Of a stretch of DNA of 64,000 bases, positions 34,655-62,651 are shown in pieces. Source of the stretch: Natranaeroarchaeum sulfidigenes (lineage in GTDB: Archaea; Halobacteriota; Halobacteria; Halobacteriales; Natronoarchaeaceae). The stretch lies in assembly GCF_017094485.1 (NCBI RefSeq), contig NZ_CP064786.1, positions 1,426,001-1,490,000 of the forward strand, written 5' to 3'. The position numbers were made by a program, and so were the translations under genes. The notes below the pieces were generated by a model. The model made no database searches. It saw nothing but the letters and a program-made list of their open reading frames with translations, and had not been told where the DNA came from. Numbering within the stretch: position 1 is the stretch's first letter; each line of letters begins with the position of its first letter.

Positions 34655-34729
34655 GCTCCGATGGTGTAGTCCGGCCAATCATATTGCCCTCTCACGGCAA
34701 TGACCTGGGTTCGAATCCCAGTCGGAGCA
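34655..34729 (+). tRNA. tRNA-Glu (anticodon CTC)
   Basis: A 75-nt cloverleaf. The acceptor GCTCCGA pairs with TCGGAGC, the anticodon stem TTGCC pairs with GGCAA around loop CTCTCAC giving anticodon CTC, and the T-arm CTGGG/CCCAG encloses the TTCGAAT loop. The discriminator A is at 34729; CCA is not encoded. An integrase gene begins 247 bases downstream, so its 3' half is the probable attachment site. Confidence 0.97.
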
Positions 34730-34976
34730 TCCTTTTCCTTTCGCCGTCTGGTGGTTTTGTCCTGCGCCACATACCCATGTTCGACTCAACGCGCAGACCA
34801 AGCAAGCTCGAAGGATTCACACACAACCACGCTGTCTTGCGATTATCCGTTTTGCCATACCTATTCGACTCGCAGGACTCGGTACTGACCCCGTCTCAGT
34901 CATGCGATACGAGAATTTGGTCAGCGATCTCAGAGCTACAGAACCACCGATCCGATATTCGTAGAGGGGACAGCCA

Positions 34977-36077
34977 ATGAACCTTGACGATTACCCGGTT
35001 GTCACCGAGCCATCTGAGGCATTTTTGAACCAACGACAACTCTTGGATTACCGCTCCGAACGGGAGGAGTGTCTTCGGTGGCTTCTGGCATACGGGAAAG
35101 AGCCCAAGAAAGCAAAGGGCTATGCAAAAGGCACGGTCAAACCTCGATCGTATCGTATTGATAGGTTCTACAGGTTCGTCTGGGAGCGTGAAGAGGGATA
35201 CACAGTGAACCTTGCACATGATCACGCTGATGCGTGGATGGACCACCTCGCTCACCGTGACGTGAGTGCCACACACAAGGTCAACTGCCAGAAGTCACTC
35301 AAGATGCTTTACAAATGGCTGCACCACGAGCGAAACCTTGGTAAATGGAATCCCGAGATCACTTTTTCAGCAGATAACAGCTCAAACCCCCGTGACTTCT
35401 TGACCAAAGAAGAGCGGAGCGCCATCCGTGATGCCGCTCTTGAATGCGGATCGATTCCGAGCTACAACAATTTGACCCCCACCGAACGCGATCGGTGGAA
35501 ACAACATCTCGCCCAGCGATTCGAGAAGCCAAAGTCCGAGGTCACTCCTGCGGATTGGGATCGTGCTAACGGCTGGAAGATCCCGTCACTCGTGTGGGTT
35601 TCTCTGGATACCGGCTTGCGGCCAACCGAAGTCGAACGCTCAACGATGGATTGGGTAGATACAGACAACAGCGTCCTCCGGATCCCAAAGGAGGACAGTG
35701 CGAAAAATACGGACAACTGGAGAGTTGGCCTCCGGGACCGGACCGCTGAGATACTGCAGAACTGGTGTGAAGAGAGGGTGGCGTACCCCGAGTACGATGA
35801 TACGGATGCGATTTGGTTAACACGAGAGCAGAACCCCTGGTCCGTTTCGTCGCTTCGTGGCCTGCTGCACAGGCTCTGCGAGATAGCTGATATTGAGACG
35901 GCAAATCGGCAGATGAGTTGGTACGCCATCCGGCATTCAGTCGGCACCTATATGACCCGAGAAGAGGATCTTGCGGCGGCCCAGGCACAACTTCGACATA
36001 AGTCTCCAGAGACGACGATGAAGTACGACCAGACCCCAGTTGAAGATAGACGGGACGCGTTAGATCGTATGGGGTAA
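34977..36077 (+). CDS. Tyrosine recombinase/integrase (Int1) next to tRNA-Glu
   Basis: 366 residues. An N-terminal SAM-like core-binding region (about 30-125) precedes the catalytic domain. The catalytic set is Arg215 (DTGLRPTEVE), Tyr316-x-x-Arg319-His320 (WYAIRHSVGTYM), His341 (LRHKS) and the nucleophile Tyr350 (TMKYDQT). Tyr replaces the usual His of box II. It lies right after tRNA-Glu and is oriented away from it, so it probably integrated the accessory region there. A 20-codon ORF directly upstream (34904-34966) may be a leader but is unsupported. Confidence 0.85.
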   Translation: MNLDDYPVVTEPSEAFLNQRQLLDYRSEREECLRWLLAYGKEPKKAKGYAKGTVKPRSYRIDRFYRFVWEREEGYTVNLAHDHADAWMDHLAHRDVSATHKVNCQKSLKMLYKWLHHERNLGKWNPEITFSADNSSNPRDFLTKEERSAIRDAALECGSIPSYNNLTPTERDRWKQHLAQRFEKPKSEVTPADWDRANGWKIPSLVWVSLDTGLRPTEVERSTMDWVDTDNSVLRIPKEDSAKNTDNWRVGLRDRTAEILQNWCEERVAYPEYDDTDAIWLTREQNPWSVSSLRGLLHRLCEIADIETANRQMSWYAIRHSVGTYMTREEDLAAAQAQLRHKSPETTMKYDQTPVEDRRDALDRMG

Positions 36078-36102
36078 TCTTTTCTAACCGAATGAGCAGG
36101 GT

Positions 36103-36156
36103 GTCATAGAACGGTTGGCATCCCTGTATTGCTCTCTCGACCATCGTTAAATATAG
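36103..36156. repeat. 54-bp direct repeat, copy A
   Basis: Begins GTCATAGAACGGTTGGCATC and is matched at 47633-47686 with about 9 mismatches and no gaps. It lies 25 bases after the Int1 stop. It ends in an AT-rich TTAAATATA that could be a promoter. Its origin is unknown; it may be a mobile-element end or remnant. Confidence 0.6.
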
Positions 36157-36185
36157 GGTGTGTACATATCACTCATGAATGTCTA

Positions 36186-36629
36186 CTACGGTAACAGACC
36201 AGTATCTCGTTCTTTCACGATTTCACTCCCAACGGGTGGTTCTTCGGCTACTCTGACGATAGCTGGAAGTTCCTCCTCGAAATGGACTATCACACGATAC
36301 GATACCGCTTCATCAACTTCTTCACATTCGTCTCTTCCATCATGCTGTCTAGTAAGTTCGATATGTAGCTTATCATCCTCTACATCATAGACTGGTTCTT
36401 CAAGATGTGCATCATAGCACATGTCTCCAGTTGAATACACACCACTCGCATATACTGCATTATCACTGAAACGTACTCTTGGATCGTCATCGGGTCTCTT
36501 ATCAACGCCAACGCCGGTTTCAAATTCGACATTAGTAATTTCTGCAGCCCTGTTGAGGTTCCCAATACACCCAGACGCGCCAATAGAGATGGAGAGTCCA
36601 ACGCCAGCAAGCAACTGCCTTCTGTTCAT
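36186..36629 (-). CDS. Tat lipoprotein, unknown
   Basis: 147 residues from the ATG at 36629 (MNRRQLLAGVGLSISIGASG followed by C). It has a twin-arginine motif, a short hydrophobic stretch and a lipobox GASGC, so it should be exported folded and lipid-anchored outside the membrane. The mature part is short, acidic and beta-rich. No domain is recognised. It sits between two convergent integrase genes, probably as cargo of the element. Codon use is noticeably less GC-rich than the core genes. Confidence 0.7.
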   Translation of the reverse strand: MNRRQLLAGVGLSISIGASGCIGNLNRAAEITNVEFETGVGVDKRPDDDPRVRFSDNAVYASGVYSTGDMCYDAHLEEPVYDVEDDKLHIELTRQHDGRDECEEVDEAVSYRVIVHFEEELPAIVRVAEEPPVGSEIVKERDTGLLP

Positions 36630-36778
36630 AATAAAACTAGAACCGTCGTTGCATAAATGTCTTCTACTGACCCGACTGGAGTGAACAGTTCGCAGGAGCA
36701 GTGTAGCAGGCAATTCACTGTTAAAACTATGAACTCAACACTTCATGAAGTGTTCCATGACACCCTCAAACGCTCAAC

Positions 36779-37891
36779 CTACATCAAGTCCGCCACTTCC
36801 TGTTTCAGTTCTGGGAGCGGGTGGATGTAACGATCGGCAGCGGCAGTGCTGTTCTGCCTGAGGGTTTCAGCGACGACCCGCCTGTCTTTATATTTATCGT
36901 AAACGTAGGTTCCGATACTGTGTCGGAACGAATACCACACTATTTTACGATTACCTTCATCGATGCCTGCCTCATCGACGAGATTATCGAGTAGATCGTT
37001 CAGTGATGCTGAAGTGTATGGATTCCCCTCGCGCGTGAGCCAAATCTCGTCACGCCCATCGTACATCTCCTGATTTGCTCGTTGGTCAAGCCAGTTATCA
37101 AGAGCGTGTGCACCTTCCTGCGAGAGTTCTTGCTCCCAGGAATCGTCATTTTTTGGCGCTTCTCCTTCGGGAATATATATTCTCTGGGCCTCCGGGTCAT
37201 ACCACTCGACACTCATACGGCCAATCAAGTCCGGCCTCCATCCAGCACCTCTCGTAGTGCGGACGAGTGATGGGACTTTCCAGTCCTTGTTGAGCGTGTC
37301 CCAGTCGGATGGCGTGACTTCGACTTTGGGCTTGCCGAGCTCTTGAGCGATGTGTGCTTTCCAGCGATCTCGGTCCTCTGGGCTGAGGTTGTTGTAGCTC
37401 GGCACACTCTTGTAGGTGAGAGAAGTCTGCCAAAGCTGTTGGAGTTCGGACTTTCGGAATGGATCTGCGTTCTCCGTTGCCGGTTCGTCATGGAATCTCG
37501 TCTCTGGGTCCCAGTCGATGCCCTGGAACTCGAACCAGTTGACTATGACATCGTTGATCTTCCGCTTGCTCCCCTCCGCGTATCGCCCTCCATCCATGCG
37601 ACGAAACGAGTCCTCAGCGAGAGCCTCGTTGACGATGTCTGCGTCCTCGGTTGTGAATTCGGTCGTGATTGTCTCATTGTTCCAGACCCACTTCATGACG
37701 CGATGGAATCTGGAGATACGTTCGTTGACTTTGCTGTATCCGAGCCCTTTCTTCGGATTCTTGCCCTCTGTCTCCAGATACTGCTTAAACCGACTCAACA
37801 CCGCAGAGTAGATATCCTGCTGCCGACTGTTGAGCGGCTTAAACTGCTCGTCTACTAAGATTTGGTCTTCTGATCTCCCCCGACTACTCAT
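36779..37891 (-). CDS. Tyrosine recombinase/integrase (Int2), convergent to Int1
   Basis: 370 residues with a layout closely like Int1 (shared VPSYNNLSPEDRDRWKAH and GKPKVEVTPSDWD blocks). Catalytic candidates are Arg219 (GAGWRPD), Tyr320-x-x-Arg323-His324 (WYSFRHSIGTYV) and the nucleophile Tyr355 (AADRYIHP). The His/Lys seen as His341 in Int1 is Gln346 here (LRQNS). It may be active with a relaxed motif or may be degenerate. TTTTAAATA about 30 bases upstream supports the start. Confidence 0.82.
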   Translation of the reverse strand: MSSRGRSEDQILVDEQFKPLNSRQQDIYSAVLSRFKQYLETEGKNPKKGLGYSKVNERISRFHRVMKWVWNNETITTEFTTEDADIVNEALAEDSFRRMDGGRYAEGSKRKINDVIVNWFEFQGIDWDPETRFHDEPATENADPFRKSELQQLWQTSLTYKSVPSYNNLSPEDRDRWKAHIAQELGKPKVEVTPSDWDTLNKDWKVPSLVRTTRGAGWRPDLIGRMSVEWYDPEAQRIYIPEGEAPKNDDSWEQELSQEGAHALDNWLDQRANQEMYDGRDEIWLTREGNPYTSASLNDLLDNLVDEAGIDEGNRKIVWYSFRHSIGTYVYDKYKDRRVVAETLRQNSTAAADRYIHPLPELKQEVADLM

Positions 37892-38246: not shown

Positions 38247-39512
38247 TTAGGTTCGCTCATACGCTATCTCCTGTAATGCTTCGTTAAATATCTCCCCGAC
38301 CTCTTGATGGTCTGTAAGCGCTTGCGCCAGCGTTCGGTAATAGCCCTCGCCGCCCTCCCAGTCGAACGGGTATGTCGTGATCGTGAACCGTGTGTACTTG
38401 CGATCGTCCCGCTCTGGTAGTCGAATCGTAGTTCCTTTGCGTTGCTCAATGTCTGCAGCCATCTCTTCGAGCCGTGTGCGGACCCCGTCACTGTAGAGGT
38501 AATCCTGAAATTTCGTTCGTAAGTCCTCGTTGGCACCCGTCAACTGTGTCTTGAATTTGAGCTGGTTGCTGGCGATTTGGTCCAAACTGATCACGTGCTG
38601 GAAGTACGGACGCAGCGAGTGGCTACTACTCACGTCTTCTCCCGGTTCGACATCAGCGATGGGCCACGTTTGCTTATAGAAGGAGAGTTTCTTACCACCG
38701 GTGTGATAGTGCCAATTGTCGTCCCACCCCGCTGGCGCATACGGTTCGAATCGTTGGGGCCAATTCTCTTGATGACTCTCCACTACAGATTCGAACGCTT
38801 CCCTCACGTCGCTGATCGAATCGTGATACTCAATCGCCAATTCGACTTTCTCCTGTTGGTTTGCTTCGTGCTGTGTCATACTGGTCTCACTTCGAACGGT
38901 GTTTAGAAAATCGGTGAACTGTGCATAACTCTGAAGCGGTTGCTCTCTGACCCCTGTTTGCGTCAGTGGCTGGAACGCAGCAATGAGTGTGGTCCAGTCG
39001 AGATTCACGAACGCGTCTGCATCCGCTGTGCTTCTGTCCGGTGCTAAATAAACGTAGAACCTATTCGCTTCGTCGAACGTACTTTTTAGCGTCTCCCCAA
39101 TGTAGTCATCTTCGACATATCGGTTCGTCTGATTTGTTCCCTCTCGTGACCGAACTTTCATCTCAATCCAGATGAACCACTCCTGTTCGTACGTGATGAT
39201 GATATCCGCACGATTGTCGTTCGGAGTCACCACTTCCCGCTGGACATCGACCTCGTCGACGGCGTACCGATCAAAATGAAACCCATCGCAGCGCTCCTCA
39301 ACCAACTCAAGGAACTGCAGGAGTACAGCCTCATCGAAGCCGTGCGGTTCTTTCGAATCGAGGAAATATCGCAGGAGTCGATTCCAGTGATCCTCATCGT
39401 AGTGCTTCTCAAGTATTTCGAGCGTGGTCTTCGGCGGCGCACTTACCTGTTCGATATTCGAATAGAGAGCGTCGAACTCGGCCAATACCCGACGGAGCTC
39501 GTCAACGGCCAT
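38247..39512 (-). CDS. PD-(D/E)XK nuclease superfamily protein (PDDEXK_4-like)
   Basis: 421 residues from the ATG at 39512; a TTATTTA box 25-31 bases upstream favours this over the ATG at 39536. The N-terminal part has the nuclease core RADIIITYEQEWFIWIEMKVRSR, giving Asp103, Glu117 and Lys119. A DEANRFYVYLAP strand follows. The C-terminal part (about 225-410) is rich in aromatic residues and has no known domain. The fold is used by restriction, anti-phage and repair nucleases. There is no methylase or partner beside it, so it may be a solo defence enzyme of the island. Confidence 0.72.
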   Translation of the reverse strand: MAVDELRRVLAEFDALYSNIEQVSAPPKTTLEILEKHYDEDHWNRLLRYFLDSKEPHGFDEAVLLQFLELVEERCDGFHFDRYAVDEVDVQREVVTPNDNRADIIITYEQEWFIWIEMKVRSREGTNQTNRYVEDDYIGETLKSTFDEANRFYVYLAPDRSTADADAFVNLDWTTLIAAFQPLTQTGVREQPLQSYAQFTDFLNTVRSETSMTQHEANQQEKVELAIEYHDSISDVREAFESVVESHQENWPQRFEPYAPAGWDDNWHYHTGGKKLSFYKQTWPIADVEPGEDVSSSHSLRPYFQHVISLDQIASNQLKFKTQLTGANEDLRTKFQDYLYSDGVRTRLEEMAADIEQRKGTTIRLPERDDRKYTRFTITTYPFDWEGGEGYYRTLAQALTDHQEVGEIFNEALQEIAYERT

Positions 39513-39749
39513 GTCACTGCTTGTGATACCTCGCATAAATAAGTCCGCGAAACAGGCCAGTGCTCACATAGCAGTTACTGCATCAGTGACCACCTGAGCT
39601 CACGGATAGGGTTATTGTGTGAGCACTCTGTACTGTCCAATTGTCGCTTTCTCTCTCGACTGTTCGTCGGTATTAGCGAATAGAATCTGAGTAACCGTTT
39701 GTGAAGTAATATACAAGCGCTTTTTATTATTTATAATAAATAGTAACGT

Positions 39750-40749: not shown

Positions 40750-40767
40750 GAGGATTTCAACAGAGCC
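40750..40767. repeat. Solo IS6-like terminal repeat
   Basis: GAGGATTTCAACAGAGCC, identical to 46181-46198 and the inverse of the sequence at 44048. No transposase is attached. Confidence 0.5.
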
Positions 40768-40787
40768 GCTACCCCTTGTCTGCGTAC

Positions 40788-41225
40788 TCAGTCTTCCCGA
40801 AGTCGATATCCCCAGTCGCGGAGTTCATCGGCGACTTCATCGGGATGATTTGCACCCACACGAACCAAGGCTTCTCGAACATCAGTAAGGGGGACATCAG
40901 TCCCGAGTTCATCCTCGATAGCATGTCGGGCATCCTTCTCAGTCTCTTGTGTAGCCTCGCGCAAAAAGTACTGAATCATTTTTCGACTGTCCTTGACGCT
41001 GTGTCTCGCAAAAATGTATGGCAGTGTATCACGGTTCTGTCCTGAGCCGGTGGCCTGTGATTGCTTATTTGCTGTCGAGTTAGCACCAGCATCCGAAGTC
41101 GAGGCAGACTCAGATGTTTCCTCCCGTTCTTTGGTCTGTGCTTCAGATTCTTCTGGTGACTCCTCATCGGTGGATGTATCAGAGAATGGATCGCTGCCAG
41201 CTCCTGATTTCATTCCGTTTGTCAT
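40788..41225 (-). CDS. ParA-operon partner, unknown
   Basis: 145 residues. The first about 70 are low-complexity Ser/Thr/Glu/Asp. The C-terminal 75 (LPYIFARHSVKDSRKMIQYFLREATQETEKDARHAIEDELGTDVPLTDVREALVRVG) are helical and could bind DNA or ParA. The ATG overlaps the ParA stop by four bases (ATGA), so this is the likely ParB-equivalent of a plasmid-type partition module, inferred from position since no ParB domain is visible. Confidence 0.62.
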   Translation of the reverse strand: MTNGMKSGAGSDPFSDTSTDEESPEESEAQTKEREETSESASTSDAGANSTANKQSQATGSGQNRDTLPYIFARHSVKDSRKMIQYFLREATQETEKDARHAIEDELGTDVPLTDVREALVRVGANHPDEVADELRDWGYRLRED

Positions 41226-42058
41226 TGGTCTCCTACCTCCTCGATATGTGCTGCAAGGTCTCGTAGTTTATCCAGGGTTTCGGCTTCGTAGTCACGTTTG
41301 TGGGATCGATGATGGCCAAAGTAGTAGAATGCAGTACAACGTTGGTCCCACGACCCCTCGAATAGTGCAGACCGATCCCGGATAGTGACGGGGGCATCGT
41401 AACCCAGTTGCTGAATCTCTTCGAGGTACTGCTCCTGATCTGATGTGCTGCCGATCCCATTCGGTACGATTGCAAGTACTCCCAGATCGAGATCTAGGTT
41501 GGCTTCGAGATTTGTTAAAATATCTTCGATCCCTGCGATGGACTGCATCCCTTTGCCAGTCGGCTTCACTGGTAGGAGTAGTGATCGGGTTGCAGAGACA
41601 GCGTTGTACAGATGAGGACCGGGCGATGCTGGTGGATCGATGATAATCGTATCATACTCGCGTCGGATGTCAGCATCAATTAAAACTTGTCGCAGTCGGT
41701 CGTTTGGGCTAAATTCTTCACCGAGGTCTTCAGCCAGATTTTGAGCTTTCATTAATAACTGTGGCAGGTTTTCCAGCATACCATGGGATGGGACAACGTC
41801 AAATCCATATGGGGTCTCTTGGATCAGTTCACTGAACTCACCCTTTGGCTCATCAATTAAATGTCGAGCAATATTATCAGCTACATCATCGTCACGAGAT
41901 GTTGGGATATCAAGCAGGTACGACAGCGATCCCTGCTGAGGATCTAAATCCAAGACGAGCACGTCTCGTCCTTGTTGGCTGTGAGCGTCAGCGAGGTTTG
42001 CTGTCAGGGTAGTCTTACCGACCCCCCCTGACTCAGAGTACGTTGTATAGGCGAGCAT
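41222..42058 (-). CDS. ParA/Soj-family partition ATPase
   Basis: 278 residues from the ATG at 42058 (MLAYTTYSESGGVGKTTLTA). The deviant Walker A is GGVGKTT (about residues 11-17), Walker A' is LVLDLDPQQGSL and Walker B is IIDPPASPGPHL. ParA polymerises on DNA and segregates plasmids or integrated elements. Palindromes about 38-80 bases upstream (42096-42134) and a TTTTATAAG TATA box at about 42081-42089 fit an autoregulated promoter. The gene suggests that the island was, or can be, a replicating plasmid. Confidence 0.85.
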   Translation of the reverse strand: MLAYTTYSESGGVGKTTLTANLADAHSQQGRDVLVLDLDPQQGSLSYLLDIPTSRDDDVADNIARHLIDEPKGEFSELIQETPYGFDVVPSHGMLENLPQLLMKAQNLAEDLGEEFSPNDRLRQVLIDADIRREYDTIIIDPPASPGPHLYNAVSATRSLLLPVKPTGKGMQSIAGIEDILTNLEANLDLDLGVLAIVPNGIGSTSDQEQYLEEIQQLGYDAPVTIRDRSALFEGSWDQRCTAFYYFGHHRSHKRDYEAETLDKLRDLAAHIEEVGDQ

Positions 42059-42095
42059 ACACAATCATAAGAGCCAGTCACTTATAAAACTAAAT

Positions 42096-44004: not shown

Positions 44005-44044
44005 ATCTGAACACGACGGTAGCGTGCTCAGCAAGAATAAAAAA
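44005..44044. repeat. 40-bp repeat (copy of 51847-51886)
   Basis: ATCTGAACACGAC then TAGCGT and CAGCAAGAATAAAAAA matches 51847-51886 at 38 of 40 positions. The other copy follows the TumE-like gene, so this is probably what remains of a similar module cut by the insertion at 44048. Confidence 0.55.
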
Positions 44045-44047
44045 AGA

Positions 44048-44196
44048 GGCTCTGTTGAAACCCTTCAAATTTGACATTGGGTGCAGCTACCTTTCTACGG
44101 AGTTTCGCAGATCAGACACGAAACTAGCTTCTCAGTGAATCACAAGACGGCAGGAGGGTTTCCACAGCACCAATGGATAGGATTTCAACAGGCCCG
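44048..44196. mobile_element. MITE-like remnant with IS6-type ends
   Basis: 149 bp bounded by GGCTCTGTTGAAA and TTTCAACAGGCC, an imperfect inverted pair, with no coding capacity. It is inserted behind the poly-A repeat at 44005. No target duplication is visible. Confidence 0.55.
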
Positions 44197-47530: not shown

Positions 47531-47629
47531 AACGCGGAACCGTTCGGCGAGATGCGTGAGGACACCATCGACACCGTTGAAGCCATGCGCGAGAAGGGGC
47601 AGACCAGGCCACCACAGGGAACAGATTAG
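47531..47629 (+). pseudogene. Gene fragment (C-terminal tail)
   Basis: An open tail NAEPFGEMREDTIDTVEAMR...PPQGTD ends in TAG at 47627-47629. It has no start and no upstream partner, so it is probably the end of a lost gene. Not recognised. Confidence 0.35.
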
Positions 47630-47632
47630 GAA

Positions 47633-47686
47633 GTCATAGAACGGATGGCATACCTGTATTGCTCCCCCGGGAATCGTTCCATATAG
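47633..47686. repeat. 54-bp direct repeat, copy B
   Basis: Begins GTCATAGAACGGATGGCATA; see copy A at 36103-36156. The two lie 11.5 kb apart in direct orientation. Confidence 0.6.
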
Positions 47687-47855
47687 AAGATGTACTTGTC
47701 ACCAGTGACTATTGATTTTATACTGTATCAAACGACTGACGGACAAGAGTTGCAAAAGGTGATCAAAGACGGAAATCAATCAGATTGTTTTATAGATACA
47801 ATCACCACAATATTGGTTGAGAAAGCTTATCAAATCCGGGAAATTGATTATCTAC

Positions 47856-51233: not shown

Positions 51234-51663
51234 AACTCCAACTGACCCGCCCAGTACCGGCCCCATCGATGCTGAAATTCTCGACCGTATTGCTGCGCAC
51301 CTCACTCGAAGCTCTCGCTTCGACGATGTCCACGCACGCCCTCCGTATGCGCCGAATGCTGTCGTCGCCGACTATGATCTCGGGTACTTCCCCGGCGGAA
51401 TTACGCGTGCGTCTCTCCGGATCCGGTGGTTCGAAACCGATGACTTCAGCATCCATTACTCCGAGCAATACCGGGCGGGTGAATCGTGGGAGTGCCGCTG
51501 GGATCGCCACCCAAACGATCACAACACTCGTAACCATTTACATCCACCTCCAGACGCACCGACACCAGGCGAGGACAATGACTATCCCGACGAATGGCGG
51601 GCCGTACTCGCCACCGTACTCACTCGTCTCGACGACCGAATCGAAGCATTCTGGAACGAGTAG
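51227..51663 (+). CDS. TumE-like toxin candidate
   Basis: 145 residues beginning MPETPTDPPSTGPIDAEILD. The core SLRIRWFETDDFSIHYSEQYRAGESWECRWDRHPNDHNTRNHLHPPPDAP, with its aromatic beta-strands and repeated histidines, resembles TumE (DUF6516) family toxins. The family is a suspected ribonuclease. A decayed second copy exists at 59673-59818 with the same downstream 145 bases. Activity not shown here. Confidence 0.6.
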
Positions 51664-51805
51664 TGAATTAGAGCGGCGACATGGTGTGCGGTTCTGCAGT
51701 CGGAAGCGATCATCGCCCCTCAAACGAAACGCAGGAGGGCCGACGAAGACACACCGACATGAGCAGTCTAAGGCGACTCACAGTACGACCATATCGCGGG
51801 AAGAT
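51661..51805. repeat. 145-bp downstream repeat of TumE-like module, copy 1
   Basis: Aligned without gaps to 59816-59960. Begins at the stop codon of the TumE-like gene. It holds no recognised gene; the conserved spacer may be a module end or a recombination boundary. Confidence 0.6.
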
Positions 51806-51900
51806 TTCCCGGGGCTGCTCACTCCGCTAACTCAATCAGATTCGCCATCTGAACACGACTGTAGCGTACTCAGCAAGAATAAAAAAGAGTGAACGATGGA

Positions 51901-54900
51901 TTATTCGTTCCGGGACAATCGCGTACCGACCAGTAGCCCAAGCAGGGCAATCACAGCGACGGTCACGCCAAAGCCAGGCTGGTCATCATCTTCTACAATT
52001 TCATCTTCCGCTGGTTCATCATCTGTCTCTTCTGCTTCTGCGGAGTCATCAGACGCTTCTTCGGAGTCGTCTTCAGTCTCCTCAGTGTCAGCTTCATCTG
52101 CGTCGTCCTCATCTGCTTCCTCCGTTTCATCGCTCTCATCAGTCTCTTCTTCAGTCTCAGCCTCTACGGCCAGAGATGTCTCGACAGCATCGTCATCTGA
52201 GCTGAGAATAAATGTTTGTTCACCATCAGCACCCTCATCTACTTCGCCAGTGAGGGTGATGAACCGCTGTTGATCACGAGAGAGTTCCAGGGTGTCATCA
52301 GCAATCTGGTCACCATCATGCTCAAGCGTGATCGTTTGCTCACCGGTTGTCCCGCCGACATTCTCCACAGCAACCTCTACAGAGACCGTTTCACCAGCAG
52401 CCACACTATCTGGAGCTTCACGGATACTCACCTCGAACTCAGCCGGACCGAGGGACGGAGCACCGCCACCGCCGGCATCGGTTTCGTCATCCTCCTCTGC
52501 AACGAGTGTGAAGTCCTGAATTGAGATCTCTCCCTCAACAAGTGTAACCTCAGAGTCTTGTGCTTCATACTCGTCTTCATCGACTGACACAGTGTATTCG
52601 CCGAGCACCAACTCCGTTTCGTAGAATCCGTCGTCGTCAGTTGAGACGGACTCAACCTCTTCGTCATCTTGGAGGATGCTAATCTGAGCGTCTTCGATCG
52701 GATCTCCATCCTCGCCAATGACTTCACCTTCAAGCGAGCCTGTCGCCAGCTCCAACTCGAACTCCTGCGTTACGGTTTCATCCTCAGTGATTGTGACTTC
52801 GTGGTCTTGTGCTTCGTATCCGTCTTCATCGACGGACACGGTGTACTGGCCAAGGACCAGTTCTGCTTCGTAGGAGCCGTCTTCGTCAGTTGAGACGGAC
52901 TCGACCTCTTCGTCATCTTGGGTGATGCTAACCTCAACCGCTTCAATCACATCTTCGTCTTCATCAAGGACTTCACCTTCAACCGTTCCTGTTGCTAGTT
53001 CCAACTCGAAGTCCTGTGTCACTGTTTCGTCTTCAGTAACTGTGACTTCGTGGTCTTGTGCTTCGTATTCGTCTTCATCGATTGTTACGGTGTATTCGCC
53101 GAGTGGTAACTCTGCTTCGTAGGAGCCGTCTGCGTCAGTTGAGATGGATTCGACCTCTTCGTCGTCTTGGGTGATGCTAATCTGAGCGTCTTCGATCGGA
53201 TCTCTGTCCTCATCAATGGCTTCACCTTCAACCGTTCCTGTCGCTAGTTCCAACTCGAAGTCTTGTGTTACTGTTTCGTTTTCAGTGACTGTGACTTCAT
53301 GACTCGCTTCTTCGTAACCGTTTGCGTTACCTGTCAAGGTGTACTCTCCCGGTGGAAGAGGGGCTTCGTAGTACCCATCAGCTCTCGTCATGAAGGAGTA
53401 GAGGATTTCACCATCCTGTTCAACTTTCACGGTGCTATCCGATAGTTCACCGTTACTATCCTCAAGAACCGTTCCTTTGACTGTTCCTGTCTCTTCCAGA
53501 ACGATGTCTTCTGTCGTTGTTTCACCAGCTTCGACTGTGATCGATGCTATAAGTGTGTTACCGTCTTCTGCATCGACGACGGCAGTGTACTCGCCTTCAC
53601 CGAGGTCAACGTCGTATGTTCCATCTTCAGCACTGTCAACAGACTCCGTGAACACGCCGTCTTGGTATATACTAATAAGAGCACCTCCCATTGTGTTTCT
53701 ATCTTGGTCAGTGACCTCTCCCTCAAGCGTTCCCGTACTCACCGGGGTTGCTTCAAGATCTTGAGTTGTCGTTTCGCCGCTGACCAACGAGACTTCTTCA
53801 CTATCTCCGTCGTGCGTCGCATCAGTAATGCTGACCGTGTACTCACCCTCAGCTATGTCCTGTGAGTAGTGCCCATCTTCATCCGTAGCAGTAATAGACA
53901 CCACAACTCCGTCTTGTTTAATACCAACAAAGATACCTTCTACTGCGTTATCGTCTGCATCAGTCACTTTCCCTGCAATCTCCGCTGCTATTTCCAACTC
54001 AGCGTCTACGGTTGTCGTATCGTCTTCCGAAATACTAACCCTGTGTTCCTCCCCTGCGAACCCGTCTGCCGAGATAGACACGTCATAATCCCCTTCTTCA
54101 ACTTCAACTGCGTAGTTACCCTCTTCGTCAGTCTGAACAGAGCCAACAGATTCAGCATCCTGAAAAATACTGACACGGGCAGCTTCAATCGGCTCACCTT
54201 CTTCATCAGTTACCTCTCCTTCAAGCACACCTGTCTCAAGAGGTTCAAGTTCGAAGTCCTCTGTCGTCGTCGTCTCTTCCTCAATGCTGGTGTCTCTCTC
54301 TTTGCTCGCAAACCCATCTTCATCAATGGACAGTGAGTACTCGCCCTCACCTAGTTCTACTTCGTAGGTACCATCATCGTCAGTCTCGACAGACTCAATG
54401 AAGTCGCCATCCTGAAAGATACCAACCTCAACATTTCCGATCGGATCATCTTCGTTGTCTTTGTCTGTGACTGCCCCTTCAAGCGTCCCAATACTCAGTG
54501 GCGTCGCTTCCAGATCTTGGGTTACAGTTTCTCCTTTTTCTACTGAGAATTTCTTGCTAACGTCCTCAAACTCAGAGTCGGTAATGCTAACTGTATTCTC
54601 TCCTTCTGGAACATCAATCGAGTAGTCCCCATTCTCATCAGTCCGAGTCCCAGTAAATCCGTCTTGTCCCGCAGTGACTCTAACGCCTTCTACTGCATCA
54701 CCATCTTCATCTGTCACCGTTCCCTCGACTACGCCTGCTATTTCGAGTTCAAAATCTTGGGTCCTGTCCTCATCGAGATTCACCGTCGTAAAGTCAGATA
54801 AGAACCCATCCGCGTCAGCCCGGACGTTGTACTCGCCTTCTTCAAGCTCTACTTCATAATTGGCTTCCTCGTCAGTTTGGACACTATCAACGAAATCACC

Positions 54901-56340
54901 GTCTTGAGTAATACTGACACGAGCATCTTCAATTGGCTCGCCTTCTTCATCGGTGACTTCTCCCTCAAGAGTAAGTGATTCTTCAAGCTCGACGTTTTCT
55001 ATCGATGTGGCGTCCTCCTCGATGTTGACAGTCCGCTCTTCAACCTCGAATCCGTCTTTGAATACGGTTGTAGTGTACTCACCTTCCTCTAGTTCAATGT
55101 CGTACTGTCCATCTGCATCAGTCTGAGTGAAATCAACGCTCTCCTGATCATGCTGGACATCAATAGTCGCCCCCTCAAGTGGCTCACCGTCTTCATCAGT
55201 AACTTCCCCTTCGAGCGTACCTGTGGCCAGCGGTTCGAGCTCGAAATTCTTCGTCTCTGACTCATCAAGTGTCACCACTTCGTCGAGGTCTTCATGAACA
55301 CTATCAGAGATCTCAACAGTGTACTCTCCAGTAGGGACTTCGACTTCGTATTCCCCATCCGTGTCGGTCTCAGTTTCCTCTACGGTTTCGCCATCTTCGA
55401 CGAGACTGATGTCAACCCCATCGAGAGCATTGTCATCTGTATCGGTCACTTCCCCATCAAGAGTCACCAATTCTTCCAACTCGAATTCTTCTATCGTTGT
55501 GGCGTCCCCGTCAATAGTGACAGTCCTCTGTTCAAACTGGAATCCGTCTTTAGCTGCGAATACGGTGTACTCACCGTCAGCCAGTTCAATGTCGTACTGT
55601 CCATCTGCATCAGTCCTGACAAAGTCAACTTGCTCCCCATCCTGCTGGATATCAACGAATGCCTCTTCAAGTGATTCACCATCTCGATCGGTGACTTCCC
55701 CTTCGAGCGTTCCAGTACTCAGCTTCGTTGCTTCGAGATCTTCTTCTTTGGTCTCTCCCTTCTCTAAGAATACATCGACACTGCCGCCCTCAAATCTGTA
55801 GTCAGAAACGGTGACTGTATAGTCGCCCTCGGGCACATCAATCGAATACATCCCTTCCTCATCGGTCGAAGTGCTGTAGGATGAACCGTCCTGTTCGGCC
55901 GAAACACTGACATCCTCTATCTCGGTATCGTCTTCATCTTTCACCGTACCCTCGATCGTCGCTGCGGTCTCCAACTCTAAGTTTTGGGTCCTGTCCTCGT
56001 TGAGAGTCACCGTAACTGGGCTCGGGGACAAGAATCCGTCTGCTTCGGCGGCCATGACGTAATCACCTTCTTCTAGTTCGATCTCGTATTCCCCATCTGC
56101 GTCGGTGGGTACCTCAGCAACAAGCTCATCGGTATCATCATCTTGAATAAAAACGTCTGCATCCTCAATGGGGTCATCGCTTTCGTCGACCACGGTGCCG
56201 CTCAGCACATGTTCTGTTGAGTCACTCTCTGCCGCTGCAGGTGAGGCGATTATTGCACCACCCACCATCGCCATGACAACGAATAGAGCGAGTATAGTAA
56301 TACGACACTTTGTTAGTTTTCGTGAAGTTCCAACTGCCAT
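51901..56340 (-). CDS. Giant surface protein: 15 carboxypeptidase-regulatory-like (Ig-fold) repeats, PGF-CTERM
   Basis: 1479 residues from the ATG at 56340 (MAVGTSRKLTKCRITILALF); a signal peptide (about 1-40, ending AAAES) is cleaved. Then come 15 repeats of about 80 residues of the CarboxypepD_reg type, each starting with a (L/V)EG(E/T)V(T/K)D pattern and with (D/E)G-(E/D)Y-T/V-V strands. A CARDB-like domain follows (FEVSIREAPDSVAAGETVSVEVAVENVGG), then an acidic Asp/Glu/Ser/Thr linker and a C-terminal PGFGVTVAVIALLGLLVGTRL, the PGF-CTERM signal processed by archaeosortase A. The product is probably a lipid-anchored cell-surface stalk or adhesin. The repeats make the gene prone to recombination. 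Confidence 0.85.
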   Translation of the reverse strand: MAVGTSRKLTKCRITILALFVVMAMVGGAIIASPAAAESDSTEHVLSGTVVDESDDPIEDADVFIQDDDTDELVAEVPTDADGEYEIELEEGDYVMAAEADGFLSPSPVTVTLNEDRTQNLELETAATIEGTVKDEDDTEIEDVSVSAEQDGSSYSTSTDEEGMYSIDVPEGDYTVTVSDYRFEGGSVDVFLEKGETKEEDLEATKLSTGTLEGEVTDRDGESLEEAFVDIQQDGEQVDFVRTDADGQYDIELADGEYTVFAAKDGFQFEQRTVTIDGDATTIEEFELEELVTLDGEVTDTDDNALDGVDISLVEDGETVEETETDTDGEYEVEVPTGEYTVEISDSVHEDLDEVVTLDESETKNFELEPLATGTLEGEVTDEDGEPLEGATIDVQHDQESVDFTQTDADGQYDIELEEGEYTTTVFKDGFEVEERTVNIEEDATSIENVELEESLTLEGEVTDEEGEPIEDARVSITQDGDFVDSVQTDEEANYEVELEEGEYNVRADADGFLSDFTTVNLDEDRTQDFELEIAGVVEGTVTDEDGDAVEGVRVTAGQDGFTGTRTDENGDYSIDVPEGENTVSITDSEFEDVSKKFSVEKGETVTQDLEATPLSIGTLEGAVTDKDNEDDPIGNVEVGIFQDGDFIESVETDDDGTYEVELGEGEYSLSIDEDGFASKERDTSIEEETTTTEDFELEPLETGVLEGEVTDEEGEPIEAARVSIFQDAESVGSVQTDEEGNYAVEVEEGDYDVSISADGFAGEEHRVSISEDDTTTVDAELEIAAEIAGKVTDADDNAVEGIFVGIKQDGVVVSITATDEDGHYSQDIAEGEYTVSITDATHDGDSEEVSLVSGETTTQDLEATPVSTGTLEGEVTDQDRNTMGGALISIYQDGVFTESVDSAEDGTYDVDLGEGEYTAVVDAEDGNTLIASITVEAGETTTEDIVLEETGTVKGTVLEDSNGELSDSTVKVEQDGEILYSFMTRADGYYEAPLPPGEYTLTGNANGYEEASHEVTVTENETVTQDFELELATGTVEGEAIDEDRDPIEDAQISITQDDEEVESISTDADGSYEAELPLGEYTVTIDEDEYEAQDHEVTVTEDETVTQDFELELATGTVEGEVLDEDEDVIEAVEVSITQDDEEVESVSTDEDGSYEAELVLGQYTVSVDEDGYEAQDHEVTITEDETVTQEFELELATGSLEGEVIGEDGDPIEDAQISILQDDEEVESVSTDDDGFYETELVLGEYTVSVDEDEYEAQDSEVTLVEGEISIQDFTLVAEEDDETDAGGGGAPSLGPAEFEVSIREAPDSVAAGETVSVEVAVENVGGTTGEQTITLEHDGDQIADDTLELSRDQQRFITLTGEVDEGADGEQTFILSSDDDAVETSLAVEAETEEETDESDETEEADEDDADEADTEETEDDSEEASDDSAEAEETDDEPAEDEIVEDDDQPGFGVTVAVIALLGLLVGTRLSRNE

Positions 56341-56769
56341 TACTAATGAACCTGCCGAAAGGTCACGGTGCATCTTACTTATAGATTGTCATGTGAGGAT
56401 AAGGACTATTGCAAAATTTGGCGCTGCTAAATCACTAGACAAAATCGGAACGACTCGACAGAACAAGGCAGTTGAAGCGAGAAACTACGAGTCTTGGACA
56501 TATTGAATAGCACTAACCAAGGGGCCATCCGGCATCGCCCCAACATATCTCGACCGTGAGACCGGCAGTGAACACTTTTACTGAGGCAACCCACCCAATC
56601 AACAGCATCAGATCGCTACCTGACCTCGTATTTTCTTACCTCTCCCTACACTCATCCACGACCGTTCAATTGTATGAGATCCCCCATCTATTCGTCGTAA
56701 AGGTGTTGAATAGAACCTGTTAAACCGCCACCTCTAAATACAGTGATGCTGGAGTCAGTAGTCCGCACA
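56341..56769. other. Spacer with promoters of two divergent genes
   Basis: A CTATAAGTA box (about 56374-56382) can drive the surface-protein gene. A TCTAAATA box at about 56731-56738 lies before the 115-aa gene, as does a similar box at about 62262-62270 before its copy. No other gene is seen. Confidence 0.4.
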
Positions 56770-57117
56770 ATGCCCGTGACCGCTACCCCAACGATCCAGT
56801 ACGAGTGGTCGATTGACGCTGTCGACGCCAATCATGGAGCGCGCTACTCCGGTGGTTCGAGCAAGGAAATGCTGACCTCTCTGTTCGCACTCTGGCTCAA
56901 AGATCAAGGAGACATCTCTGACTGGGAGCAGGCACCCCGGTTCGGCAAAATCGTCCACACATACAGCACCCTTTCCCTACCAATCATCGCTGTCTGGCTC
57001 GGTGTCACCGAACAAACGATTTACGAGGAGCCCGCACCCGGGACCCCACCATTCGAGTTCCGTGGCCCTGATGGTGACTTACTCACACTCGCCCGGGAGT
57101 GCACCGAGTGCCAATAA
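56770..57117 (+). CDS. 115-aa protein, duplicated family, copy 1
   Basis: 115 residues (MPVTATPTIQYEWSIDAVDA...). A segment ALWLKDQGDISDWEQAPRFGKIVHTYSTLSLPIIAVWLGVTEQTIYEEP could hold a helix-turn-helix-like element (VWLGVTEQTIY), but no family is known to me. The start is chosen at the ATG that the copy at 62304 shares, about 32 bases after the TATA box. Copies differ by only a few residues. Two dispersed copies and a fragment suggest it travels with mobile DNA. Confidence 0.6.
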   Translation: MPVTATPTIQYEWSIDAVDANHGARYSGGSSKEMLTSLFALWLKDQGDISDWEQAPRFGKIVHTYSTLSLPIIAVWLGVTEQTIYEEPAPGTPPFEFRGPDGDLLTLARECTECQ

Positions 57118-58103: not shown

Positions 58104-59354
58104 CTACGACACGACTTGCTCTCTCGTGCGAAACATCCCGCTCTCGCGGTCGAACAAGTATGTCGATGGCTGTGCCACACAGCCGTTACTCCTATCCTCT
58201 CCATGAGGACTCGGAGTTATCTTCTGGCGCATATTCTCCGCCCCATTGCAATCTGCGTTCCCGACCAACTCGCACGACGAGCAGACGTACAACCCACGTT
58301 CGACACGGTTCGACTTCGTGTCGTCACCACACCGTGAACAGGTCTTCGAGGTGTTCCACTCGTTCTCTTTCAGCACCTCAACGCCACGGATCTCGCCTTT
58401 GTATTCGAGGTACTGGTAGATACGGTCAAACGCCCACGAGTGCAACTTCTTGTTGCCGGTCTTCCCCCAATCAGACTCTCGCACGTCTTCAGGCCAACTC
58501 ACCGCGAGTGTACCCACACCGCGTTCGACACACTCGGTGATGATGGTGTCCGTCAACGTGTGGTAGAAGTGCGTCTCGCGGTCTGCGAGTTTTCTACGTG
58601 CCCACATCGACCTCTCCGAGGGGCCGTTTTCACCCTCAGTATCGTACTCAGCACGTTTGAAATAGTGCTTGTCTTCTTTTAGCGAGTTACCGGGGTAGAG
58701 TACGTATTCGTCTGGGAATGCGACTGTGGCGATGTTTTTGATACCGAGGTCGGTACCTGCCACGCCTTCGCCTGCTGAGTCGTTCGTTTCGAGGCTGACG
58801 TTGCAGACGAAGTGTAGTTCCCATTCGTCGCCGTTCCAGACGGCCCGAACGTTCTGCACGCTGTTGACTTTTGAGAGGTCAACGTCGGGTCGTGTCTGGT
58901 ACTCGCAGAGCAGGAAGTCTGACCAATACTCCTTGAGGTTCTTCCCCTTGCTGAGTCGGACGCGGTTGTTCTCGGGATCGTGTTTGAAGCCGTCTTCTTT
59001 GAACGTGACCGTGCTACGGGGGCGTTCGTCGCCGTGTTTGCGGTAGCCGGGCGGATTCGCCTCCTCATCCTTGTGTCGCAGGTCGAACCATGACTGGAAA
59101 GCGTCGGAAAGTTCTTCGATGACTTTCTGACTGGATTGTGCGTTCAGGTCTTTCCAGCATGACTGGTTCTTCATGTACGATTTCAGCACACCCTCGTCTG
59201 GGATTTCACCGGTCTCATTCCAGATGCGGTCGGCTGTCCATCGTGCGACATTCCAGATTTTGGAGGCGGAGTCTCCGAGCGAGTCGAGGCCATCGCAGAC
59301 TTGTCTGTGGTTCTGGATGGAACCAACATAGGTGCGAGTGACCTCAATCGCCAT
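58104..59354 (-). CDS. tnpB: Lone TnpB (IS1341-type) RNA-guided nuclease homologue
   Basis: 416 residues. The RuvC-I Asp is Asp202 (AGTDLGIKNIA). The third Asp is Asp368 (NADCNGAENM). The zinc finger is C339-x2-C342...C358-x2-C361. The second acidic residue, normally Glu in an I-x-E-D-L context, is not at its usual place: the strand reads GTLAVSWPEDV, with Glu289 displaced by two to three residues. TnpA is absent, so it cannot move alone. The N-terminal part is the usual beta-barrel/helical DNA- and RNA-binding region. Confidence 0.85.
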   Translation of the reverse strand: MAIEVTRTYVGSIQNHRQVCDGLDSLGDSASKIWNVARWTADRIWNETGEIPDEGVLKSYMKNQSCWKDLNAQSSQKVIEELSDAFQSWFDLRHKDEEANPPGYRKHGDERPRSTVTFKEDGFKHDPENNRVRLSKGKNLKEYWSDFLLCEYQTRPDVDLSKVNSVQNVRAVWNGDEWELHFVCNVSLETNDSAGEGVAGTDLGIKNIATVAFPDEYVLYPGNSLKEDKHYFKRAEYDTEGENGPSERSMWARRKLADRETHFYHTLTDTIITECVERGVGTLAVSWPEDVRESDWGKTGNKKLHSWAFDRIYQYLEYKGEIRGVEVLKENEWNTSKTCSRCGDDTKSNRVERGLYVCSSCELVGNADCNGAENMRQKITPSPHGEDRSNGCVAQPSTYLFDRESGMFRTREQVVS

Positions 59355-59484: not shown

Positions 59485-59690
59485 AGGAAGATAGATCGGC
59501 GCGTCGAGCCAGTCTCGCCCGGTAACGATCGCCTCGAACGCGATTTCTGCGTCCTCGGAACTGAGTGCGTCAGGTTTGACGAGCGCTCGGAGCACGATCG
59601 GTGACACTGCCACCTCCGGCGTCTACCAGTCCCTGTAGTTCGGCGAGTGCGGTTGGGACCGTACCCCGATTGATCATAACACGCGCGCAC
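59485..59690 (-). pseudogene. Decayed gene next to the TnpB left end
   Basis: Minus-strand reading gives LVKPDALSSEDAEIAFEA and DWLDAPIYLP, which look coding, broken by stops and at least one frameshift. The remainder probably ended at the element insertion. Not recognised. Confidence 0.35.
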
Positions 59691-59818
59691 ACTTCCACCC
59701 GCCGCCAGACCCACCAACCCCTGGAGAAGACGCACACTATCCCGACGAATGATGTGACGTACTCGCCACTGTACACACCCATCTCGACGAACGGATCAAG
59801 GCCTTCTGGAGCGAGTAG
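59673..59818 (+). pseudogene. Decayed TumE-like C-terminal fragment
   Basis: In one frame, DHNTRAHFHPPPDPPTPGED then HYPDE-stop-CDVLATVHTHLDERIKAFWSE matches residues 100-145 of the TumE-like protein (DHNTRNHLHPPPDAPTPGED). A TGA replaces the Trp codon after DE. The 5' part is missing. Confidence 0.6.
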
Positions 59819-59960
59819 TGAATTGGAGCAGGGGCATGGTGTGCGGTTCTACGGTCGGAAGCGATCATCGCCCGTCAAACGGAACGTAGGACGGCCGACG
59901 AAGACACACCGACGTGAGCAGTTCAGGGGGACTCACAGTACGACCATATCGCGGGAAGAT
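59816..59960. repeat. 145-bp downstream repeat of TumE-like module, copy 2
   Basis: Gapless match to 51661-51805, following the decayed TumE fragment. It implies that a whole module was once duplicated, then decayed here. Confidence 0.6.
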
Positions 59961-61954: not shown

Positions 61955-62303
61955 TGCGAATTTCCTCTGCCTACCTGTCTCATTAGAAACAGAAAAAGTC
62001 TTGCATTATTGCTAGCTGAAAAGTTCAATAAAAGCTATAATCATAGATAGCAGCGGGCAACTCTGTGCTCTGACTGAACTGTCTCCCCACGAATCGGAGT
62101 AACTGATATTTTGAGAGAGTCTGCATCTACTCAAACTACCGACTGAACCTGTATCTCACTACGTATTTTAACAGCGCCTCAAAGCTGTGTTCGGGCAACT
62201 CTTCCCATCTGATTGTACGATTCTTTTCTGGGAAATAGTCAGAATAGAACCTAGTAAAGCGTTATTTATAAATACAGTGATGCTGGACTCAGTAGTCCGC
62301 ACA
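61955..62303. other. Intergenic region
   Basis: About 350 bases between two divergent genes. It contains a TTTATAAATAC box (about 62260-62270) for the downstream 115-aa gene. No other feature seen. Confidence 0.4.
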
Positions 62304-62651
62304 ATGTCCGTGACCGCTACCCCAGCGATTCAGTACGAGTGGTCGATTGACGCCGTCGACGCCAATCACGGAGCGCGCTACTCCGGTGGGTCTAGCAAAA
62401 AAATGCTGACCAAACTGTTCGCACTCTGGCTCAAAAACCGAGGTGATCTGTCTGACTGGGACCAAGCACCACGATTCGGGAAGATCGTCCACACATACAG
62501 CACGCTTTCCCTGCCGATCATCGCCGTCTGGCTCGGTATCACCGAACAAGCGATTTACGAGGAGCCTGCACCCGGGACCCCGCCATTCGAATTCCACGGG
62601 CCGAACGGCGACTTACTCGAACTCGATCGGGAACTCACTGAGACCCAGTAG
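62304..62651 (+). CDS. 115-aa protein, duplicated family, copy 2
   Basis: 115 residues (MSVTATPAIQYEWSIDAVDA...), nearly identical to copy 1 (56770), and its promoter region is also similar, including the CAGTGATGCTGGA context. The C-terminal six residues have diverged (DRELTETQ against ARECTECQ). Selection seems to keep both. Function unknown. Confidence 0.6.
   Translation: MSVTATPAIQYEWSIDAVDANHGARYSGGSSKKMLTKLFALWLKNRGDLSDWDQAPRFGKIVHTYSTLSLPIIAVWLGITEQAIYEEPAPGTPPFEFHGPNGDLLELDRELTETQ

Follow-up and report, generated by a model that had tools for sequence, protein, structure and literature searches.

What does a second tyrosine recombinase contribute to an element that already carries an integrase beside its target gene? 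The question is raised by a locus in a 64,000-nucleotide (nt) stretch of the Natranaeroarchaeum sulfidigenes chromosome (contig NZ_CP064786.1, positions 1,426,001 to 1,490,000 of the forward strand), the whole of which we call the window; the chromosome, a single contig of 3.04 Mb, is G000 in our genome set. An earlier note on this DNA had drawn attention to two related recombinases, here Int1 and Int2, that face each other around a small lipoprotein gene, and had suggested that they could control integration and excision separately or else reflect two nested elements. The window contains that end of a haloarchaeal integrative element which lies nearest its tRNA, and the pair recurs at the same tRNA gene in many relatives. 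The explanation we favor, which we give an even chance of being correct, is that Int1 would both integrate and excise the element and that Int2 would be a paralogue with altered catalysis, dedicated to regulating Int1 and binding DNA of the element.

The element and its target

Int1, a lipoprotein-like open reading frame (ORF) and Int2 lie where the earlier note placed them, and both recombinase ORFs are intact and convergent. The features of the locus, in window positions, are as follows (aa, amino acids).

34655..34729 (+): tRNA-Glu(CTC), the integration target, called by ARAGORN
34684..34700 (+): anticodon stem-loop TTGCC-CTCTCAC-GGCAA, a palindrome with a 7-nt spacer and the putative core site
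34834..34844 (+): exact copy of GTCTTGCGATT, a candidate arm-type site
34868..34878 (-) and 34899..34909 (+): copies of GTCTTGCGATT with two mismatches
34977..36077 (+): Int1, tRNA-targeting tyrosine integrase, 366 aa, complete RKYRHY active site
36098..36172 (no strand): 75-nt sequence with a second copy at 47628-47702 (77%)
36186..36629 (-): lipoprotein-like ORF, 147 aa, in the gap between Int1 and Int2, optional cargo
36779..37891 (-): Int2, partner recombinase, 370 aa, RKYRQY active site, AlphaFold model with recombinase fold

Both proteins match the Pfam domain Phage_integrase (E 5.5e-17 for Int1 and 1.6e-09 for Int2), are 36% identical to each other and share in translation the blocks PSYNNL..RDRWK and KPK.EVTP.DWD, as the earlier note had observed. 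Int1 starts 247 nt from tRNA-Glu(CTC), and the gap between the two recombinase genes is 708 nt by the measure used in the census below. The 75-nt repeat lies at the left edge of a stretch that is missing from close relatives. GC content is about 0.60-0.66 upstream of the tRNA and about 0.45-0.54 over kilobases downstream of it.

Two features mark this as a tRNA-targeting element: Int1 adjoins the tRNA gene, and the 3' part of the tRNA is repeated, in the same orientation, at the far end (G000 1670435-1670479, plus strand, 45 nt, 98%). A further copy lies inverted at 1549288-1549329 (minus strand, 42 nt, 98%). In the sibling genome G001, the match to the left flank reaches the tRNA (87.5%) and is followed directly by a different module, which matches G000 1545043-1549329 (96.4%); thus tRNA-Glu(CTC) is used by two different elements. 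Because the second of these lies inverted 88 kb away in G000, the 210-kb region is composite, and any right end assigned to the window element is tentative. Beside the inverted attachment (att) copy, this second module (L042:16545-19146, G000 C1 1546545-1549146) belongs to the Arg-less type described below and has its Int1-type gene split over two frames and its partner frame intact; the sibling G001 (L045) shows the opposite, with the Int1 frame intact and the partner split. Among nine genomes of the family no empty site was shown; the left flank is present in all nine, and besides G000 only G001 has the right flank at near full length, on another contig.

In seven other genomes the 3' half of the tRNA is copied in direct orientation 25-90 kb farther along (G221, 68.3 kb; G140, 24.8 kb; G108, 62.3 kb; G075, 35.5 kb; G053, 89.9 kb; G188, 54.4 kb; G111, two tandem stretches of 24.8 and 61.1 kb). 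All seven have both recombinase genes side by side at the end next to the tRNA or left att, which in G111 means the middle att copy. The repeats start mostly within a few nt of the anticodon loop (34685 or 34688 in the window, where the loop runs from 34689). Because they begin there, and because the stem-loop reads as a palindrome around 7 nt of spacer, we infer that the crossover site is the anticodon loop of tRNA-Glu(CTC), a known archaeal pattern according to passages of PMC8371274.

A partner associated with one tRNA gene

An Int1 search of 392 genomes of the order gave matches at E <=1e-120 in 104. Our census comprises the best 87 Int1 places (to E 2.2e-130), of which the 82 with at least 3 kb downstream were counted; the others (L047, L048, L127, L166 and L176) had less, weaker Int1 places are not in the census, eight loci fetched otherwise (L042, L054-L059 and L105) were left out, and the near-identical pairs L099/L101 and L129/L131 were kept in the counts. 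A tRNA was called beside Int1 at 73 of the 82 loci. At tRNA-Glu(CTC), 26 of 41 loci have another recombinase of the family no more than 10 kb away, as against 2 of 32 at other tRNAs (Glu(TTC), 1/12; Pro, 1/1; Arg, Gly, His, Leu and Met together, 0/19), a difference with a Fisher p of 4e-7 from which relatedness has not been removed; where no tRNA was called nearby, the figure is 5 of 9. The partnered loci are convergent in 27 of 33 cases and tandem in six.

The gap between the genes varies. Convergent partners are separated by 3-101 bp in 17 of 27 loci and by 0.7-6.8 kb in the remaining ten; the short gaps make the lipoprotein an optional cargo. The ORFs in the larger gaps appear unrelated to each other, except in the near-identical L099 and L101, and of ten such ORFs tested five match Pfam (a PKD protein, a dual-specificity phosphatase, an HNH protein, a TPR protein and another Phage_integrase protein). 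No homologue of the lipoprotein-like ORF was found in the other loci scanned with it, and since gap contents vary between elements we rejected the lipoprotein as core cargo. That the earlier note saw one small cargo gene between the two recombinases is incidental: in Halorubrum salsamenti Y69 (L207), the closest named relative, whose Int2 is 71% identical, 18 bp separate the frames and the lipoprotein is absent.

In a search for Int2 across the same 392 genomes, eight had orthologues at 53-62% identity and four others (G137, G252, G108 and G198) at 43-44%, below which Int1-type genes intermix. The loci fetched have the tRNA, Int1 and Int2, mostly convergent and in some cases tandem. Scanning genome contigs with the profile A2 gave ten named haloarchaeal loci, seven of which (Halopenitus malekzadehii, Halopenitus persicus, Halobacteriaceae archaeon SHR40, Haloarchaeobius sp. 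FL176, Natronorubrum texcoconense, Natrialba hulunbeirensis and Halomicrobium katesii) are probably records already in the set, so not independent. The remaining three are H. salsamenti Y69, Halohasta litorea, which has the pair at tRNA-Glu(TTC), and Halobellus rarus, whose stretch has only an Int1-type gene. The Haloarchaeobius contig stops beside Int2, with Int1 not seen there. No viral contig was matched by P0002 or P0001 as single queries, and profile A2 found one, with one recombinase at its end; four plasmid records matched, none spanning 80% of Int2.

The phylogeny of both recombinases, which the earlier note had proposed as a check, shows trees that agree. In a quick Int1 tree of 94 rows (L105 omitted; support by the Shimodaira-Hasegawa-like approximate likelihood ratio test, SH-aLRT, only), all partner-bearing Int1 fall within one 51-row clade (SH-aLRT 98). 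Partner presence on this tree takes 14 parsimony changes, so partner losses, or partners beyond the stretch searched, are frequent. In a tree of 39 second recombinases and 15 chosen Int1 rows, a single branch (99/98) splits the two groups; the 39 rows include L106, L112 and L113, which have no Int1 in the stretch, and L102x, the third recombinase of G111, so that for these four pairing is not proven. The window Int2, which had been a long unplaced branch in an earlier 23-row tree, here belongs to a nine-row clade (100/99) that has a 16-row sister clade (99/97) of Arg-less proteins. Distances on the Int1 and partner trees correlate with a rho of 0.71 over 32 pairs, a value reached in 0 of 5000 permutations of a Mantel test that left out L105, L125 and L137 and included near-identical loci. 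On these sequences, Int1 and the second recombinase appear to evolve together.

What the partner may do

The active sites of the two proteins differ as the earlier note had read them. Int1 has R215, K243, Y316, R319, H341 and Y350, and Int2 has R219, K247, Y320, R323, Q346 and Y355; set against the pattern R, K, H/K/Y, R, H/W, Y, Int2 has Gln at the H/W place, opposite His341 of Int1, and in both proteins a Tyr takes the place of the first box II His. Among 94 Int1-type rows the set is RKYRHY in 87, RKYRQY in two and truncated or misframed in five. The 39 second recombinases are more varied: RKYRQY in nine, RKYRHY in eight, Arg I replaced in 16 (by I in eight, T in three, A in two, L in two and P in one) and other sets in six. 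This count omits the misframed ORF L105 7953-8909, and the alignment omits another L105 ORF, of 850 aa. All nine RKYRQY rows are window-type; at 90% identity nine rows become eight and the 16 Arg-less rows become 14. Judged from the alignment, the Gln of Int2 is fixed in its clade and is not a private decay. In the Arg-less clade, Lys, Arg II and Tyr are retained in the 15 readable rows; a one-residue insertion displaces the Tyr of several Arg-less rows in the alignment.

Loss of Arg I should abolish recombination in the tyrosine recombinase family. In pairs chosen by hand the Arg-less frames look to be under purifying selection: nonsynonymous and synonymous divergence (dN and dS) are 0.073 and 0.54 between L128 and L129, and 0.19 and 1.27 between L132 and L128, and third positions differ most between L138 and L145, for which dS was not computable. 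The window and H. salsamenti Int2 genes differ by 0.22, 0.18 and 0.53 at the three codon positions. Catalysis has very probably been given up in the Arg-less partner clade, to judge by the residues, in proteins that look constrained in the pairs tested.

In the explanation we favor, Int1 would be the working integrase, recombining the core at the anticodon loop of tRNA-Glu(CTC), and Int2 would be an old paralogue retained as its dedicated partner, which may bind att or regulatory DNA of the element, alone or with Int1, and set the timing or direction of Int1 or repress it. Catalysis would be altered, by the change of His to Gln, in the window clade, with Arg I lost in the other partner clade, and the gap between the convergent genes would take up cargo such as the lipoprotein. 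This explanation builds on the observed layout, att repeats, tRNA association, tree agreement and residue changes and, for the pairs tested, on indications of purifying selection. The putative division of labour between integration and excision that the earlier note envisaged fits the conserved layout, the co-evolution and the altered partner site. A little short of an even chance is what we give to the broader notion that, as a mode of archaeal control, a duplicated integrase copy became a dedicated, partly catalytically dead regulator that has long been maintained in elements of one tRNA-Glu site, whether as a repressor, a directionality factor or a guard against other elements next to it at this tRNA.

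The AlphaFold model of Int2 used here was built from 18 aligned sequences, with a mean predicted local distance difference test score (pLDDT) of 80 and a predicted template modelling score (pTM) of 0.57; a first model from six rows (pLDDT 55) was not used. The model has the predicted core-binding plus catalytic domains of the family and in Foldseek matches XerA, XerH, the integron integrase, Cre and lambda Int; their Z is about 15-20. The match to XerH has a Z of 18.3 and a root-mean-square deviation (rmsd) of 4.8 over 282 residues; that to XerA has a Z of 20.5 and an rmsd of 16.6 over 265, a deviation that probably reflects a different placement of domains. The regulators SroF (9rd5, 9rgl) and YopR (8bpz, 8bj6) are also among the matches, at Z 11.6-12.6. 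A fold match alone indicates no function.

Candidate binding sites lie towards both ends of the element and may be sites of Int1. Partnered and solo elements alike have sites like GTCTTGCGATT downstream of the tRNA, near +15 and near +101 to +104, with a mean per arm at tRNA-Glu(CTC) of 2.1 in partnered (shuffles 0.05) and 1.4 in solo elements (shuffles 0.06); they are scarcer at Glu(TTC) (0.8) and weak at Gly (0.2-0.6). They probably belong to Int1, and we rejected their number as a partner signature, since it does not discriminate partnered from solo elements. Few 10-mers are common to left and right arms. At the right end, the palindrome TTGCC-N5-GGCAA, which like the GTCTTGCGATT motif was picked by eye from these same sequences, is exact in 8 of 13 arms and has one mismatch in three more; it starts 120-133 nt before the core, and a TATA-like TTTATR follows about 27 nt after its start in 10 of the 11 palindrome-bearing arms. 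It is missing from G000 1670435 and from the middle G111 copy. Three solo tRNA-Glu(TTC) elements have by eye a palindrome TTGGC..., as in their own tRNA stem, with a spacer of 5 or 6, and L049, solo at tRNA-Gly, shows no clear copy. Beside a TATA-like box upstream of the right att core, the right ends of L179-L188, L157, L156 and L172 carry a palindrome, its spacer 5 or 6 nt long, with the stem letters of the anticodon arm of the target tRNA. This arrangement suggests that Int1 binds a non-recombinable copy of its core beside a promoter that, once the element is excised as a circle, would point towards int1; the right-end palindrome may be an Int1 operator. We rejected it as an operator of the partner, since it is present in partnerless tRNA-Glu(TTC) elements too.

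Several observations weigh against a regulatory Int2. Six of the 33 partnered loci are tandem rather than convergent. Fifteen of the 41 tRNA-Glu(CTC) loci have no partner in the stretch searched, so a partner is not strictly needed there; for three of the fifteen a family recombinase lies 12 (G123), 29 (G234) or 19 kb (G242) away, and G269 has one on another contig. In the fold comparison, active recombinases outrank YopR and SroF, and topoisomerases IB are level with both. The right-end palindrome, occurring also in partnerless elements, is not evidence for Int2. L054 and L178, Int1-type genes beside tRNA-Gly for which no partner was found, carry the same Gln, and the window Int2 retains Arg I, Lys, Arg II and Tyr; because of these retained residues and the Gln of two solo integrases, Int2 may be active. 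A complete RKYRHY stands in 8 of 39 second recombinases. DNA binding by Int2 and any effect of it are putative.

The strongest alternative, which we regard as possible with perhaps one chance in four, is that Int2 is catalytically active. XerC and XerD are two cooperating paralogous tyrosine recombinases of chromosomal dif systems, and Int2 might likewise share the strand exchanges with Int1, in a mixed tetramer at an asymmetric att core with one strand per subunit. The kept R219, K247, R323 and Y355 of window-type proteins, the full RKYRHY of eight second recombinases and the agreement of the two trees all speak for it, attP left half-sites are by eye unlike the tRNA half, and the Gln of Int2 does not exclude an active mixed complex because two solo integrases share it. 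Against this stand the Arg-less proteins (16 of 39 rows, with frames intact except in L045 and L137), which should not catalyse, and the Int1 relatives at other tRNAs, which are partnerless in 30 of 32 loci.

Alternatively, and in our view doubtfully, Int2 may perform a different reaction, either resolving dimers of the excised circle or inverting DNA inside the element. It retains most catalytic residues, and there is a precedent in the recombinase of the halovirus phiCh1, which inverts a tail-fibre module as described in passages of PMC8651126. However, no second core-like site was found near the module, no inverted repeat of at least 7 nt upstream of Int2 is consistent across the eight relatives compared, and the Arg-less clade again speaks against catalysis.

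The nested or tandem elements of the earlier note, each with its own integrase, are very improbable. Multiple elements do occur at this tRNA, as the three att copies of G111 and the second module beside the inverted att copy in G000 attest, but in ten modules no att core lies between the pair or within about 1.5 kb beyond it (the best has 18/42 mismatches), 17 of 27 convergent gaps leave only 3-101 bp, and in the elements with both ends identified the two genes adjoin each other at the tRNA end, so we rejected this reading. In G111 (L102 and L189; C1 2512664, 2537478 and 2598537) the three att copies are direct and bound two tandem stretches at a single tRNA-Glu; where the first stretch ends on the right lies a third recombinase of the family (RKYRIY). 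Equally improbable is a decaying, functionless duplicate of Int1: the partner branches are long and the partner frames of L045, L125 and L137 are broken, but same-layout orthologues at 52-71% identity in several families, where the earlier note would have expected none for a decaying copy, together with fixed residues, the codon-position selection pattern and the tree agreement, led us to reject it.

Other features of the window lie beyond the pair. A PD-(D/E)XK nuclease family protein (38247-39536) and a ParA-like ATPase (41222-42064) adjoin the module. Two pairs of 300-nt direct repeats (51490-51789 / 59645-59944, 80%; 56708-57007 / 62242-62541, 87%) surround an internally repetitive ORF of 1490 aa (51901-56373) and a protein with a PKD domain (60095-61954). 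The OrfB_IS605/Cas12f1-like TNB protein at 58104-59354 is TnpB-like, and a related stretch (1.5 kb, 86%) occurs in the element of the sibling G001. Short inverted and direct repeats (40751-40770 / 44045-44064 and 44005-44044 / 51847-51886) resemble insertion-sequence ends.

Comparison with known systems

If the explanation we favor is true, a partner that tracks its integrase and has lost the catalytic Arg in one clade would be a natural candidate for integration control in archaea, would show a recombinase turning into a regulator while its active relative stays adjacent, and would do so in a module carried by named strains. The paired layout is undescribed in the literature searched, in which subscription papers were mostly out of reach, and this is no proof of novelty. 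Like XerC and XerD, Int1 and Int2 are two paralogues, here encoded by an element and associated with a tRNA core. Int2, with 370 aa and a recombinase fold, is not a small accessory protein of the kind that Xis-type recombination directionality factors are.

Int1 itself resembles the HSTV2-like archaeal tyrosine recombinases (PMC8371274, Badel et al. 2021), which are likewise haloarchaeal and have a Phage_integrase domain: over 98% of its length it shares 49.4% identity with the HSTV-2 integrase, above the threshold (at least 30% identity across 60% or more of the protein) by which passages of that paper delimit the group, an assignment made here by identity and coverage only. The pair is a difference, since each phage record has a single match (50 places in 50 records). 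The review PMC8371274 nowhere uses the words 'two integrases', 'second integrase' or 'heterodimer'; according to it, the characterized archaeal integrases are all bidirectional without a directionality factor and IntSNJ2 is accompanied by two helper proteins.

Parallels for a recombinase turned regulator come from bacteria. SE elements (IntA-Tfp-IntB-Srap) and GInts (GinA-GinB-GinC-GinD) each encode several recombinase-fold proteins, of which one is non-catalytic, Tfp and GinC being without a catalytic motif in passages of PMC10214605. Those elements belong to Gamma- and Betaproteobacteria and have an intA-tfp-intB operon, whereas the element described here is archaeal, has two mostly convergent genes and targets a tRNA; the window has two facing recombinases with a lipoprotein ORF between them and not the SE or GInt gene set. 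MrpR (YopR) of SPbeta is a repressor with a recombinase fold that performs no recombination and lacks Arg I and the His/Trp residue while retaining Lys and Tyr, as passages of PMC10516654 describe; together with SroF of phi3T it represents the use of this fold as a DNA-binding regulator. Its residue loss is similar to that of our 16-row partner clade, in which Arg I is gone, whereas the window Int2 keeps Arg I, and a pairing of MrpR with a close integrase paralogue does not figure in those passages. Because recombinase-fold proteins without catalysis are thus already known in MrpR, Tfp and GinC, a regulatory Int2 is plausible.

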